This document shows, piece by piece, positions 36,234 to 42,235 of a stretch of 64,000 nucleotides of DNA. Under the pieces are notes generated by a model that was given only the letters and a program-made list of their open reading frames with translations, searched no databases and was not told where the DNA came from. The position numbers and the translations under genes were made by a program. Source of the stretch: Aestuariispira ectoiniformans. GTDB lineage: Bacteria; Pseudomonadota; Alphaproteobacteria; UBA8366; Aestuariispiraceae. The stretch lies in the NCBI RefSeq assembly GCF_025136295.1, contig NZ_CP062788.1, positions 3,613,588 through 3,677,587 of the forward strand, given 5' to 3'. Numbering within the stretch: the first letter of the stretch is position 1; each line of letters begins with the position of its first letter.

Positions 36234-36854
36234 TTATTTCGACTTGTCTTCCATGCTTTCCAGGCGTTTCTGCATGGCGTCCAGTTGCTTTTGCAAATCC
36301 TTCAACTGATCGCCGCCTTCACTGGCGCGCTCCTGTTCCGGTTCCGGTGCGGAGGCAGGGGCTGCCGGTTTACCGCCCGTCATGCCTGAAAAAGGCGAGA
36401 ACATCTGCATGGCCTGTTCGAACATGGCCATATTCTGCTGGCCCATTTTCTCCAGATTGCCGAAGGGGAATACCGAACCGAAGGTATCCTGCATATATTG
36501 CTGAATCTGTTCCTGGTTCTGGCCGAAACTTTTCATTGTCATGTCCAGATACTGCGGCAACAGCATCTGTTTCATATTGTCCCCATAGTAACTGATCAAC
36601 TGGCGCAGGAAGCTGATCGGAAGCAGGTTCTGGTTCCCCTTGCTTTCCTCTTCCACGATGATCTGCGTCAGGACGGACCGCGTGATATCCTCGCCGCTCT
36701 TGGCGTCGAAAACCGCGAATTCCACCCCGTCCTTCACCATCTGGCACAGATGGTCCAGAGTTACATAACTACTGGTGGCCGTATTGTAGAGCCGCCTGTT
36801 CGCATATTTCTTGATTGTGATGGGCTCCTGCCCACCTTTAGTCGCGTCAACCAT
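36234..36854 (-). CDS. phaR: Polyhydroxyalkanoate synthesis repressor PhaR
   Basis: A 206-residue regulator. The N-terminal DNA-binding PHB_acc_N domain ITIKKYANRRLYNTATSSYVTLDHLCQMVKDGVEFAVFDAKSGEDITRSVLTQIIVEEE is diagnostic. Next is SFLRQLISYYGDNMKQMLLPQYLDMTMKSFGQNQEQIQQYM, the PHB-accumulation domain that senses PHA granules, and a coiled-coil tail. PhaR releases its DNA when it binds PHA, derepressing phasin and synthesis genes. ATG 36854 fits the family. It is divergent from the PHA-synthase-like locus; candidate PhaR sites lie between. Confidence 0.93.
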   Translation of the reverse strand: MVDATKGGQEPITIKKYANRRLYNTATSSYVTLDHLCQMVKDGVEFAVFDAKSGEDITRSVLTQIIVEEESKGNQNLLPISFLRQLISYYGDNMKQMLLPQYLDMTMKSFGQNQEQIQQYMQDTFGSVFPFGNLEKMGQQNMAMFEQAMQMFSPFSGMTGGKPAAPASAPEPEQERASEGGDQLKDLQKQLDAMQKRLESMEDKSK

Positions 36855-36932
36855 AACCAGCAACCGGCTCCCTATTATATTCTCTTGCCTTATCCTTGGA
36901 CGGTCGCGGTTCCTGCCGCAACCTCTTATTTT

Positions 36933-36981: not shown

Positions 36982-37076
36982 CAAAGCATCTGATGTCAGT
37001 CATTTTTGGCCCGAAAAAACAGTTATTCCGTTCATCCCAATGGTCACGAGCCTTCAGCATCGCTATAGTAACACAG

Positions 37077-37433
37077 ATGGATAAAGCACCGGAAATGCGG
37101 GACCTGGCCGCGCGGATACTGGACCTTTGGCAGGAGCAACTGACCCTGATGGCCCAGGATTCCGAATATATGCGGCTGGCCCAGACAAACCTTACGGCAT
37201 GGGGCAATTTCTTTGGCTACAACGCAAGCGCAGCACGGACGGATGGGTCCACGTCCTCTCCCGCTTCATCTGACCTCGGCAATGGCGACCTTGACCAGCT
37301 CGCCCATCGCGTTGACGAGCTTGATCGGCGGCTGCGACAGCTCGAACAAGGCAGCCCTGCACCCAAGTCTTCAGGAAAAGGCCGCAAACCTGAGCGCGGA
37401 CCTGCAAAACGCCCTCCGGCAAAACGCGGATAG
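37077..37433 (+). CDS. Short helical protein overlapping the PHA-synthase-like gene
   Basis: A 118-residue protein beginning MDKAPEMRDLAARILDLWQEQLTLMAQDSEYMRLAQTNLTAWGNFFG, an amphipathic helical segment like the start of PhaE/phasin-type PHA granule proteins. A linker leads to a coiled coil, DLDQLAHRVDELDRRLRQLEQ, and a basic tail rich in P-K-R. Both ends look like real protein. It overlaps the next gene by 191 bases in another frame. I infer a PHA-synthase partner; family membership is not certain. Confidence 0.65.
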   Translation: MDKAPEMRDLAARILDLWQEQLTLMAQDSEYMRLAQTNLTAWGNFFGYNASAARTDGSTSSPASSDLGNGDLDQLAHRVDELDRRLRQLEQGSPAPKSSGKGRKPERGPAKRPPAKRG

Positions 37434-38463
37434 CCCCGCCTTCGCCGAACTCTATCAGGCGCTTGGCGAGGAAATCAGCCACCGCAGTAATCAGTTCCTG
37501 GCCGGGATCGAAGCCTATCGGCGTCACGCCTATCGCCGCAATCTGCCCCCCGTTGACAGTATCCACACCATGGGCAGCACCCAGGTTCTGGATTTTGGTG
37601 GCGACGGCCCGCCCGTTCTTCTCGTCCCGTCCCTGGTCAACCGGGGTTACATCCTGGACCTGTCAGAGGATTGCAGCCTTGCCCGCTGGCTGGCCGGTCA
37701 GGGCGTGCATCCCTATCTGGTGGAATGGGGGATGCCCGGCGACGAAGAGACACAATTCGGCCTGGAGGACTATATCCGGCGTTTGACCATGGTGCTGGAA
37801 GACCTGGCGGCCCGGCATGGGGAACCGGTTATCCTGCTGGGCTATTGCATGGGTGGCCTACTGACGTTGAGCGCCTGTTTGCAGGTACCGCAATATGTGT
37901 CCCGTCAGATTCTGATGGCAACGCCCTGGGACTTCCATAGTGACGGTGGCACCCAGGCAGGCATCCTGGGCAGTATGCAACCCTGGCTGGATTGGGTGGT
38001 CACCACCTATGACATGCTGCCGACCGATGTGTTGCAGATGTTTTTCACCCTGCTCGACCCGCTTCTGGGTCTGAAGAAATTCACTCGCTTTGCCGACCTG
38101 GACCCGGCCAGTGACCAGGCGCGCGCCTTTGTCGCATTGGAAGACTGGCTGAATGACGGCGTGCCGCTGACCGGGCCGACCGCGCGGACCTGCCTGCACG
38201 ACTGGTATGGCGACAATCTGACAGCCAAGGGCACATGGACCGTGGGTGGCAAGGCCGTGCTGCCCGAAAACTGTCAGGTGCCGACACTATGCCTGATCCC
38301 CTCCGGCGACCGGATCGTTCCCCCCGCCTCTGCACAGGCGCTGGCGGACAAGCTGCCACATGGGACGACCATTACGCCCCACGCCGGGCATATCGGCATG
38401 GTCACCAGCCGCCGGGCACGGGATGGCGTTTGGCAGGAAATCCTGCAATTCGCGTTGAGTTAA
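37243..38463 (+). CDS. PHA-synthase-like alpha/beta hydrolase
   Basis: A 406-residue protein of the PhaC-like alpha/beta fold. The nucleophile elbow is GYCMGG with Cys202, as in PHA synthases, and the catalytic Asp and His are in PSGDRIVPP and PHAGHIGM. VLLVPSLVNRGYILDLSEDCSLARWLAGQGVHPYLVEWGMPG is typical of class III PhaC. The N-terminus MGPRPLPLHLTSAMATLTSSPIALTSLIGG matches the family's usual start, so the ATG at 37243 is chosen although it lies within the previous gene. It probably polymerises hydroxyacyl-CoA, or is a related acyltransferase. Confidence 0.85.
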   Translation: MGPRPLPLHLTSAMATLTSSPIALTSLIGGCDSSNKAALHPSLQEKAANLSADLQNALRQNADSPAFAELYQALGEEISHRSNQFLAGIEAYRRHAYRRNLPPVDSIHTMGSTQVLDFGGDGPPVLLVPSLVNRGYILDLSEDCSLARWLAGQGVHPYLVEWGMPGDEETQFGLEDYIRRLTMVLEDLAARHGEPVILLGYCMGGLLTLSACLQVPQYVSRQILMATPWDFHSDGGTQAGILGSMQPWLDWVVTTYDMLPTDVLQMFFTLLDPLLGLKKFTRFADLDPASDQARAFVALEDWLNDGVPLTGPTARTCLHDWYGDNLTAKGTWTVGGKAVLPENCQVPTLCLIPSGDRIVPPASAQALADKLPHGTTITPHAGHIGMVTSRRARDGVWQEILQFALS

Positions 38464-38602: not shown

Positions 38603-39775
38603 ATGACTGATGTGGTAATCGTCGGCGCAGCACGTACACCGGTTGGTGCATTTAACGGCAGCTTGAGTGCGGTGTCCGCGTCCTATCTCGGGACGGTCGC
38701 CATCAAGGAAGCCCTGAACCGTGCCAAGGTCGACGCTGCGGACGTGGATGAAGTGGTTCTGGGCCAGATCCTGACCGCCGCGCAGGGGCAGAATCCGGCC
38801 CGTCAGGCCGCTGTCGAAGCCGGCATCCCGACCGACAAGACGGCGTATGTGATCAACCAGGTCTGTGGTTCCGGCCTGCGTTCCGTGGCCCTTGGCCTGC
38901 AGGCAATCAAGGCCGGTGACAGCTCCATCGTCGTGGCCGGTGGCCAGGAAAGCATGAGCCAGTCAACCCACGCCGCCTATCTGCGCTCCGGCCAGAAGAT
39001 GGGCGACATGAAATTCATCGACACCATGATCCGGGACGGCCTGTGGTGTGCATTTAACGGCTATCACATGGGTAACACTGCGGAAAACGTTGCCAAGCAG
39101 TGGCAGTTGACCCGCGAGGAACAGGACGCTTTCGCCGCCCATTCCCAGCAAAAGGCCGAAGCCGCCCAGAAGGCAGGCAGGTTCGACGACGAGCTGGTTT
39201 CCGTGACCATCGCTGGCCGCAAGGGCGACACCGTGGTGGACACAGACGAATACCCGCGTCACGGCACGACGGCTGAAAAACTGGCAGCCCTGCGTCCGGC
39301 CTTCGACAAGGAAGGCACCGTAACCGCAGGCAATGCCTCCGGCATCAACGACGGCGCGGCAGCCCTTGTCCTGATGAGTGCGGAAGAGGCTGAAAAACGC
39401 GGCCTGACGCCACTGGCGCGCATCGCCTCCTGGGCGACCGCCGGTGTCGATCCTGCGATCATGGGCACCGGCCCGATCCCGTCTTCCCGCAAGGCCCTGG
39501 AAAAGGCAGGCTGGAAAGTGGACGACCTGGACCTGGTCGAGGCCAACGAAGCCTTCGCCGCCCAGGCGCTGGCCGTCAACAAGGACATGGGCTGGAACCC
39601 GGATATCGTGAACGTCAACGGCGGTGCGATCGCTATCGGCCACCCGATCGGCGCATCCGGCGCACGTGTGCTCGTCACCCTGTTGCACGAAATGCAGAAA
39701 CGCGATTCCAAAAAGGGTCTCGCCACGCTTTGCATCGGTGGCGGCATGGGCGTCGCCATGTGCCTGGAACGCTAA
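38603..39775 (+). CDS. phaA: Acetyl-CoA C-acetyltransferase (PhaA/AtoB type)
   Basis: A 390-residue thiolase that condenses two acetyl-CoA to acetoacetyl-CoA, the first step of PHB synthesis. Catalytic Cys88 is in [11 protein letters not shown], His in [10 protein letters not shown], and the second Cys in [15 protein letters not shown] precedes the ATG. The context with phaR and the PHA-synthase-like gene supports PhaA, but AtoB function cannot be excluded. No phaB is adjacent. Its terminator hairpin is immediately followed by an IS element. Confidence 0.93.
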
Positions 39776-39820: not shown

Positions 39821-41334
39821 CAGACTGCTGACAAAGGTCTCGCGCAAGCGGGGCCTTTGTGATTCTATGTTTTTATGTTGAAGAAGCCCCAGCCTGAACA
39901 GGGCCGACTTGAGATGGTGACATTGGAGGGTCTGGTGCCTGCGGATCACCTGCTTCGCAAGATCGATGCGGTGATCGACTTTTCGTTTATCCACGACCGG
40001 GTGGCCGGTCTGTATTGCGCGGATAATGGCCGCCCGGCGCTGGACCCGGTGATGCTGTTCAAGGCGCTGTTCATCGGCTACCTGTTCGGCATCCGCTCGG
40101 AGCGGCAGTTGGTGCGGGAGATCGAGGTGAATGTGGCCTATCGCTGGTTTCTGCGCTTGGGCCTCACCGACAAGGTGTTCGATGCCTCGACGCTGTCGCA
40201 GAACCGCCGCCGCCGCTACCAGGATGTGTCTGTGGCGCAGGATATTTTCGATCACATTGTCGAACAGGCAATTGCCAAGGGTCTTGTGGACGGCACGGTG
40301 CTTTATACCGACAGCACCCATCTGAAGGCCAATGCCAACAAGAACAAATGGGACAGCCAAGTGGTCGCCAAGTCCCGGGCCGACTATTGGGACGCGCTGG
40401 ACCTGGCGGTTGAGGAGGATCGGGCGGCCATGCCAAAAAGCCGCTGAAGGCGAAGGAACGCGCGCCCGGGCAAAAGGAGACCAAGGTCAGCCGCACCGAC
40501 CCGGAAGCCGGTTACATGGTGCGTGAAGGCAAGCCCAAGGGGTTCTTTTATCTGGATCATCGCACGGTGGACGGGCGTTATGGCATCATCACCGATACTC
40601 ACGCCACCCCGGCCACTGTGCATGACAGTATCCCCTATCTGGACCGGCTCGACCGGCAGCGGGACCGCTTCGGCCTGGATGTCCAGGCGGTCGGGCTGGA
40701 TGCAGGCTATGCCACGGCGGGCATCGCCAAGGGGCTGGAAGACAGGGATATCCTCGGTGTAACCGGCTATCGCCGCCCGAACCACCGGGCAGGCATGCTG
40801 CGCAAGCGGGACTATCAGTACGACCGGCAGTTAGACGGCTACCGCTGTCCGCAGGGCCAGTTCCTGAATTATGCCACCACCGACCGCAACGGCTATCGCC
40901 ATTACAAAAGCGACCCGAAGGTCTGCGCCACCTGCCCGCTGCTTGCCTCCTGCACCGGCAGCGCCAAACACACCAAAACCGTCACCCGCCATGTCTGGCA
41001 GGACGCCCGGGAGCGCACGGACGCCCACCGTCTCACCGACTGGGGCAAAAGGCTCTATAAAAGACGCAAGGAAACTGTAGAACGCTCCTTTGCCGACGCA
41101 AAGCAGCTCTTCGGACACCGATACGCCCGCTTCCGCGGCCTCATCGCCGTCAAAACGCAATGCCTGCTCGCCGCCGCCGCCCAAAACATCAAGAAAATCG
41201 CCCTCGCAATGGCTCCAAAAACCGAAACCAGCCCGATCTGATCGAAAGGGGACTTCTCACTCTCCCTCAATAACAACCGGCAAACATCCAAAACTAAACC
41301 CCGCCGAATATCGACGGGGTTTGTCAACGGTCTG
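39821..41334. mobile_element. IS1182-like insertion sequence, 1514 bp
   Basis: The terminal inverted repeats are CAGACTGCTGACAAA at 39821-39835 and, read from the other strand, CAGACCGTTGACAAA at 41334-41320, matching at 13 of 15 positions. Each end has a hairpin just inside (ACAAAGG...CCTTTGT on the left, AAACCCCG...CGGGGTTT on the right). The transposase fits the IS1182 family but is frameshifted, so the element is probably inactive. Confidence 0.88.
39875..41241 (+). pseudogene. IS1182-family transposase, frameshifted
   Basis: The N-terminal half (39875-40447) carries the DUF772 domain (LDPVMLFKALFIGYLFGIRSERQLVREI and VFDASTLSQNRRRR) and first catalytic Asp (VLYTDSTHLKAN). The C-terminal half, open in the -1 frame from before 40448 to 41241, carries the second Asp (VGLDAGYAT), a Cys-rich VCATCPLLASC, and the catalytic Glu (ETVERSFADAKQLFG). 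The break is at ATGCCAAAAAGCC near 40430-40442, where a HGKKPLKAKER-like sequence is expected; loss of one base explains it. Confidence 0.9.
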
Positions 41335-41389: not shown

Positions 41390-41884
41390 TCAGATGATCA
41401 CCCAGACACCCGCGCCATTCTTGCAGGCGGTCTGCTGACCTTTGCGTTCCTCGCCGCTGACATTGATCGTAGTGACGAAGTCACGGCAGAGGCGACCTTT
41501 ATGGTCCAGGAAAGTACGCAGCGGTGTGAAGCTGCCGAAATTACCGCTTCGGTCATTCTTCCAGCTAAGGGTCTGGCCGTTGCCTGCCTCCAGGCTTTCA
41601 TAGGCCGTGGATTGCATGGCGGATTTGTCCCAGCGGCTCATCTGGTCTGCGGCCCAATATCCGGCATAACCACCAGCCGCCCCGCCCAGCGCCATGCCGA
41701 GAAGCTGTGAGCCGGAACTGGCGCCGCTGCCCCCCATCAGGCTGTAGCCCAACAGGCCACCGGCCACCGCACCGACAACGGCACCACCGGCAAGCTTGTC
41801 CTTCCGGTCAATCTGATTGCCCGTGATACAGCCGGTCGTCGCCAGGGACGCCGCCAGCAGGAGAGACAGAGTTGCTTTTCTCAT
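41390..41884 (-). CDS. Glycine-zipper lipoprotein (17 kDa surface antigen-like)
   Basis: A 164-residue outer-membrane lipoprotein candidate: signal MRKATLSLLLAASLATTGC, a glycine-zipper helix GGAVVGAVAGGLLGYSLMGG and LLGMALGGAAGGYAGYWAADQM, then a C-terminal domain SYESL-like, with WKNDRSGNFGSFTPLRTF and CRDFVTTINVSGEERKGQQTACKNGAGVWVI. The last block matches the RT0821/17-kDa surface antigen family. Role unknown; structural lipoprotein is likely. The start at 41884 is chosen over a GTG-like extension. Confidence 0.85.
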   Translation of the reverse strand: MRKATLSLLLAASLATTGCITGNQIDRKDKLAGGAVVGAVAGGLLGYSLMGGSGASSGSQLLGMALGGAAGGYAGYWAADQMSRWDKSAMQSTAYESLEAGNGQTLSWKNDRSGNFGSFTPLRTFLDHKGRLCRDFVTTINVSGEERKGQQTACKNGAGVWVII

Positions 41885-42235
41885 TGGTCGAAGGGTACCC
41901 AAGCATTAAAACTTCAACTTGCGTAATTATTACAAAGTATTTGAACGCCGCCAACAGGTAATATCTGCCGGGTTTCTAGATAAATTTTGCATTAAATACT
42001 TTATTGTCTTGCAGGACCTCAATATCGCATAACCACTACGCAGGCACCGCAATTGATTTGTGGTTGTCTGCGGGATCGCATGCTATACAGCGGGGCTTAC
42101 ACAAAAGCTATTCGTTTAACCATCTGAATTTCCGTCAAACAAAGCCGATTTTTACTTTTAGTGGACCATGCGTTTAACAAGCCATATTGAGGAAATCCCC
42201 TTGAACTGCCTCACAGAAAAAGGCAGTGCGGAAGG
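41885..42235. other. 351-base gap before the lipid A operon, no gene seen
   Basis: AT-richer than its surroundings. It holds a possible promoter (TATACA near 42083) and a hairpin ACTGCCT/AGGCAGT (42205-42227) ending a few bases before the acyltransferase ATG. That hairpin could hide the start region. No RNA gene or repeat is evident. Confidence 0.4.

Follow-up and report, generated by a model that had tools for sequence, protein, structure and literature searches.

The window analysed here is a stretch of 64,000 nucleotides from Aestuariispira ectoiniformans. It contains a pha locus, serving bioplastic storage, in which a small open reading frame (ORF) and a PhaC-like gene overlap on the same strand. 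The features of the locus, in window coordinates, are as follows.

36234-36860, minus strand: phaR, PHA synthesis repressor, divergent neighbour (TIGR01848 PHA_reg_PhaR, E 3e-41, above cut-off; PF07879, E 5e-31)
37041-37069, plus strand: predicted sigma-70-like promoter, TGGTCA-17 nt-TATAGT, with TATAGT at 37064-37069 (consensus scan 9/12)
37077-37433, plus strand: small helical protein of 118 aa (ORF with ATG at 37077 and stop at 37433)
37213-38463, plus strand: PhaC-like PHA synthase (open from TTG 37213; alternative start ATG 37243)
37243-37433, plus strand: dual-coding overlap (191 nt from ATG 37243; 221 nt from TTG 37213)
38603-39775, plus strand: phaA, acetyl-CoA acetyltransferase, the next gene (Thiolase_N, E 1.6e-104; Thiolase_C, E 3e-55)

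Taking the PhaC-like frame as reference, the small ORF lies in frame +2: each of its codons begins at the third position of a PhaC-like codon. The MGPRPLPLHL segment of the PhaC-like protein is encoded within the small gene. A preliminary description had reported two ORFs sharing 191 bases in different frames. Both were located where it had placed them, and the 191 nt run from ATG 37243 to 37433. The overlap may be 221 nt, with the PhaC-like gene starting at TTG 37213 rather than at ATG 37243, because its relatives usually start about 10-16 codons upstream of GPRP and because the weak Shine-Dalgarno signal of TTG 37213 (GGGG) is better spaced.

Azospirillum replicons are annotated in the same order (phaR, hydrolase, acetyl-CoA acetyltransferase and acetoacetyl-CoA reductase), and phaA is also the next gene after the PhaC-like gene in Azospirillum and Rhodospirillum rubrum. 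No Rfam families were found in the region. The place of the acetoacetyl-CoA reductase gene of related loci is occupied in the window by a broken-looking transposase gene, split into two ORFs at 39875-40447 (DUF772) and 40516-41241 (DDE_Tnp_1_6). Candidate reductases above the family cut-off are located elsewhere in the genome (C1:2411860 and C1:4238119). A relative of the 17 kDa outer membrane surface antigen and glycine-zipper proteins (PF16998, E 9e-9) lies further on at 41393-41902 on the minus strand.

The two predicted products

The PhaC-like product had been described as a PHA-synthase-like hydrolase. Its sequence motifs and best fold matches indicate that it is a PHA synthase homologue and not a generic hydrolase. 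It matches TIGR01836 with an E value of 2.7e-48 and 164.8 bits, which is under the cut-off of 365.3 bits. The triad is formed by Cys202, Asp356 and His383 (numbered from ATG 37243). The GYCMGG, DRIVP and GHIGM motifs are conserved in an alignment of 29 PhaC-like sequences, which thus carry the G-x-C-x-G-G box together with the Asp and the His. The AlphaFold2 model (mean pLDDT of 90.5) has helices in the overlap-encoded N-terminus, and a fold search with this model placed PHA synthases at the top (Z 29-33), followed by lipases (Z 27). The protein can therefore be described as a predicted PHA synthase that is extended at its N-terminus by helical sequence (GPRPLPLHL...) and has putative polymerase activity. 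Two longer PhaC-like ORFs are present in the same genome outside the window, at C1:2402954-2403733 and C1:2615233-2615550 (621 and 610 codons open, respectively). They are presumably ordinary class I synthases, and the organism accordingly has several synthases.

The small protein, the gene family of which is single-copy in this genome, is predicted to consist of a helical hairpin (residues 3-46), a disordered linker, a coiled-coil helix (residues 70-90) and a basic tail (AlphaFold2 model, mean pLDDT of 72.7). The coil noted in the preliminary description, DLDQLAHRVDELDRRLRQLEQ, was found in the C-terminal half, which is conserved among relatives. No Pfam or NCBIfam family matched the protein above cut-off, the fold search with its model gave no useful match, and the PDB sequences matched by the family were generic coiled coils and designed helical proteins only. 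PF09712 (PhaE) matched one of 26 family members at an E value of 0.002, below cut-off, and a genome search with the same profile gave a weak match (E 0.007) to the small gene of one relative, G011. In an hhalign profile comparison against 19 PhaE sequences, the probability was 3.9. The small protein thus appears to resemble PhaE in outline, and homology between the two is unsupported by the profile comparison.

Occurrence of the overlap in Alphaproteobacteria

The sources of the 110 loci examined were related genomes and a set of 80 named contigs, among them contigs of Azospirillum, Thalassospira, Magnetospirillum, Reyranella, Marivibrio and Nitrospirillum. GPRPLPLHL had been proposed as the usual start of the family, and this holds almost universally: the GPRP start is present in 106 of the 110 loci and persists where the small protein is cut short. 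A small-gene match lies in frame +2 in 108 loci (108 of the 109 having any match). The remaining two comprise one locus with a frame-0 match, in which a frameshift seems to affect the PhaC-like ORF, and one without a small-gene match. The statistics were computed on 101 distinct sequences, in which the small gene reaches 107-260 nt beyond the GPRP codon, with a median of 161. Homologues of the PhaC-like protein begin upstream of the small stop codon rather than after 37433; with the GPRP start conserved, a hydrolase starting downstream of the overlap is ruled out.

An even sample of 289 alphaproteobacterial genomes contained the PhaC-like gene in 123 cases. When the small gene was scored by profile in these 123 genomes, it was overlapping in 97, adjacent in 2 and not detected in 24, and all 99 genomes having both genes showed the same relative frame. 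Direct reading of 20 relatives, mostly from the 24 genomes without a profile match, revealed five diverged overlapping copies and several that are truncated and coil-less. Small-gene matches without a synthase were all weak (E 1e-6 or worse), which points to strict co-occurrence of the small gene and the synthase. The overlap is retained in loci of 41-46% GC, and the AT-rich relatives keep the frame open with the coil.

A tree of the synthase core was obtained with many of its deep nodes unresolved and with some rows on long branches. In it, loci whose small gene is truncated or missing fall among those with the overlap, and the early-branching row L199 has the overlap. On these grounds, the overlap probably dates back to the ancestor of the sampled family, with repeated later losses. 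Both halves have been affected in individual lineages. In L141, L149 and L206 (one family, f39), what is left of the small gene encodes the N-terminal hairpin and stops short of GPRP, and the synthase N-terminus is retained. In L191, L193 and L200, the GPRP segment of the PhaC-like N-terminus is decayed or lost, and the small-protein coil is intact. The latter three loci show a natural uncoupling of the overlap, and lineages that lost one half and kept the other can serve as natural experiments.

The phaC1 gene of R. rubrum (Rru_A0275), for which qPCR primers have been published (PMC9999600), was identified through two of these primers. Only one of 297 genomes has an exact O279 match, and the gene that holds it also contains O280, reversed and at a distance of 157 bases. 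By this identification, phaC1 is a member of the PhaC-like family and carries the overlapping ORF. It has RLGPRPLALHL, GYCMGG and EDWLND and is followed by phaA, and the upstream ORF, MSNPTDPPPEPPPDLAALAGRYLALWQKQVSAMAADP..., overlaps it by 152 nt counted from GPRP. PhaC1 has been described as a PHA polymerase (PMC4026134, PMC9999600), and its overexpression from its own ORF raised PHA about 1.4-fold (PMC4026134). PhaC2 was reported as the main synthase of R. rubrum, and none of the three conditions tested gave a detectable phaC1 transcript (PMC9999600). In seven of seven matching Azospirillum plasmid records, an 'alpha/beta fold hydrolase' is the sole feature under the small gene. The small gene is therefore likely, but not certainly, unannotated, because PLSDB itself describes its gene table as incomplete. 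PHA metabolism is under study in R. rubrum and Azospirillum, and phaC1 deletions or expression constructs made there may have affected a second gene that went unnoticed.

Constraint on both reading frames

Synonymous divergence in the PhaC-like frame was compared with expectation in 35 independent pairs, a design that avoids relatedness among sequences. Within the overlap, 278 synonymous differences were observed against 439 expected (ratio 0.63). Divergence was below expectation in 32 of the 35 pairs (Wilcoxon p 4e-9), and the ratio was 0.58 when the first 15 codons were excluded. The ratio recovers just past the small stop codon, reaching 1.05 over the next 40 codons, i.e. the constraint is confined to the overlap. 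The first 55 codons of phaA, used as a control for 5'-end effects, gave a ratio of 1.24, and a 5'-end codon effect is thereby ruled out.

The small frame was assessed by shuffling synonymous codons while keeping the PhaC-like protein unchanged. It stayed open in about 57% of the shuffles on average, and openness alone is therefore weak evidence. The overlap-encoded peptide scored 50.6 bits against the small-gene profile, compared with 11.5 bits after shuffling. None of the 100 shuffles scored as high in 99 of 101 loci, a figure inflated by related sequences in both halves. The coiled-coil heptad score of the peptide, a simple home-made measure, was higher than 95% of the synonymous shuffles in 93 of 100 loci; by this measure the coil is lost on shuffling. 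A chance open frame is ruled out by the synonymous-divergence and shuffle tests together.

The other frame shows corresponding signs of selection, GPRPLPLHL being nearly invariant where the small frame varies. In lineages with one half lost, the other is kept, with an intact GPRP start in L141, L149 and L206 and an intact coil in L193 and L200. The earlier suggestion that both products are genuine in the overlap is thus borne out at the level of sequence comparison: dual coding is confirmed in that both frames are constrained there and conserved as protein, from which we infer translation of both.

Long out-of-frame overlaps of two functional bacterial genes have, to our knowledge, rarely been demonstrated, and they are excluded by standard annotation programs. 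In known long same-strand overlaps in bacteria, two proteins are encoded by one stretch in different frames, and the second gene is missed by annotation (PMC8665328). The present case differs in being class-wide, in joining two genes of one pathway locus and in showing direct signs of selection on both frames; this assessment is based on the open-access literature and the collections searched. The class-wide conservation, the promoter position suggesting a leaderless transcript and the membership of R. rubrum phaC1 go beyond the preliminary description.

Expression signals and possible role of the small protein

Of 95 loci, 65 have a TATANT element 5-10 nt ahead of an in-frame start of the small gene (1.0 expected), mostly at 6-7 nt. 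The -35 region with TGG is weak among relatives. In the window, TATAGT lies seven bases before ATG 37077. Because a transcription start site at such a distance from the -10 element would coincide with the small ATG, this promoter position, which is the sole basis of the prediction, suggests that the small gene is expressed from a leaderless mRNA. Shine-Dalgarno pairing is stronger at candidate PhaC-like starts, with a mean energy of -6.4 kcal/mol, than at gene-body control start codons, with -3.65 kcal/mol (p 7e-22). Each locus was represented by the best among several candidates, and equal numbers of codons were considered for the control. In the window itself the signal is weak (-4.7 kcal/mol). 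The enrichment would be expected for internal initiation of the synthase.

We consider it fairly probable that the locus encodes a conserved same-strand overlapping pair, consisting of a PhaC-like synthase with an internal start and a small helical partner translated from a leaderless transcript. A single transcript would begin at or near the small ATG, and the small gene would be translated leaderless, whereas ribosomes would initiate the synthase internally, at a site in the small gene. The small protein would bind the synthase via its hairpin and oligomerise via its coil, and the shared DNA would hold both genes together. Its most likely function appears to be that of a helical partner of the synthase resembling PhaE, PhaR or PhaM; it may act as an activator, an assembly subunit or a granule tether, like PhaE, class IV PhaR or PhaM. 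We counted against this partner model that some lineages keep the synthase with a truncated small gene or without a detectable one. Furthermore, additional small protein is not obviously required, because PhaC1 overexpressed from its own ORF raised PHA in R. rubrum (PMC4026134).

The proposed pair can be compared with several known systems. The R. rubrum gene belongs to the same family, with the same phaC-phaA order and an overlapping small ORF, but it was published as a phaC1-phaA-phaB operon without a small gene. Several points of likeness and difference also connect the pair with two-component synthases. Class III PHA synthases consist of PhaC (40-53 kDa) and PhaE (20-40 kDa). The present catalytic subunit is of similar size and has TIGR01836 as its best NCBIfam match, and a helical partner gene lies just upstream, the product of which has a W-containing helix towards its N-terminus and a coil towards its C-terminus. 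However, the TIGR01836 score is far under the cut-off (165 versus 365 bits), the partner is much smaller and lacks a PhaE profile match, and the two genes share more than 100 nt in different frames. The class IV synthase of Bacillus consists of PhaC (41.5 kDa) and PhaR (22 kDa) and is similar in that the catalytic subunit is short and its partner small and helical, but it belongs to another phylum and another locus. A further reading, which we regard as possible but somewhat short of probable, is that the pair constitutes a new type of two-component PHA synthase, with the small subunit encoded out of frame over the synthase N-terminus, a leaderless message, an early alphaproteobacterial origin and functional retention. 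If it is true, fixed stoichiometry or co-translational assembly would be possible functional reasons for the arrangement.

It is also conceivable, though on balance unlikely, that the small protein is translated and conserved but serves as a nucleoid tether or granule-number factor of the PhaM or phasin kind, with a basic tail that binds DNA, rather than as a synthase subunit. PhaM of Ralstonia eutropha binds PHB, PhaC1 and DNA (PMC3556143) and offers a possible parallel to the coil and basic tail, albeit a functional one only, without a demonstrated sequence relation. Many members have K/R-rich C-terminal tails, and the last 22 residues have a mean net charge of +4.2, compared with +2.2 after synonymous shuffling. 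This enrichment is modest, unlike that of the coil; the tail is absent or acidic in a minority of members, and the small family shows no Pfam or NCBIfam relation.

The partner model also has to be weighed against the view that only the non-overlapping first part of the small ORF matters, as a leader peptide or regulatory upstream ORF, and that the overlapping half is tolerated read-through. Such a leader would fit L139, L141, L144, L149, L206 and L215, in which the hairpin alone is kept and the stop lies before or near GPRP. We regard it as very improbable because the coil is strongly conserved relative to synonymous shuffles, the synonymous constraint stops at the small stop codon, and AT-rich relatives hold the overlapping frame open, coil included. 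Hardly credible is the absence of any dual coding, with the open frame arising from high GC and codon usage and the constraint from mRNA structure or 5'-end effects: the frequent openness of shuffled frames at any single locus would agree with it, but the phaA 5' codons are unconstrained, the overlap stays constrained without its first 15 codons, the constraint ends with the small gene, the coil is preserved at the protein level, and the overlap persists at low GC.
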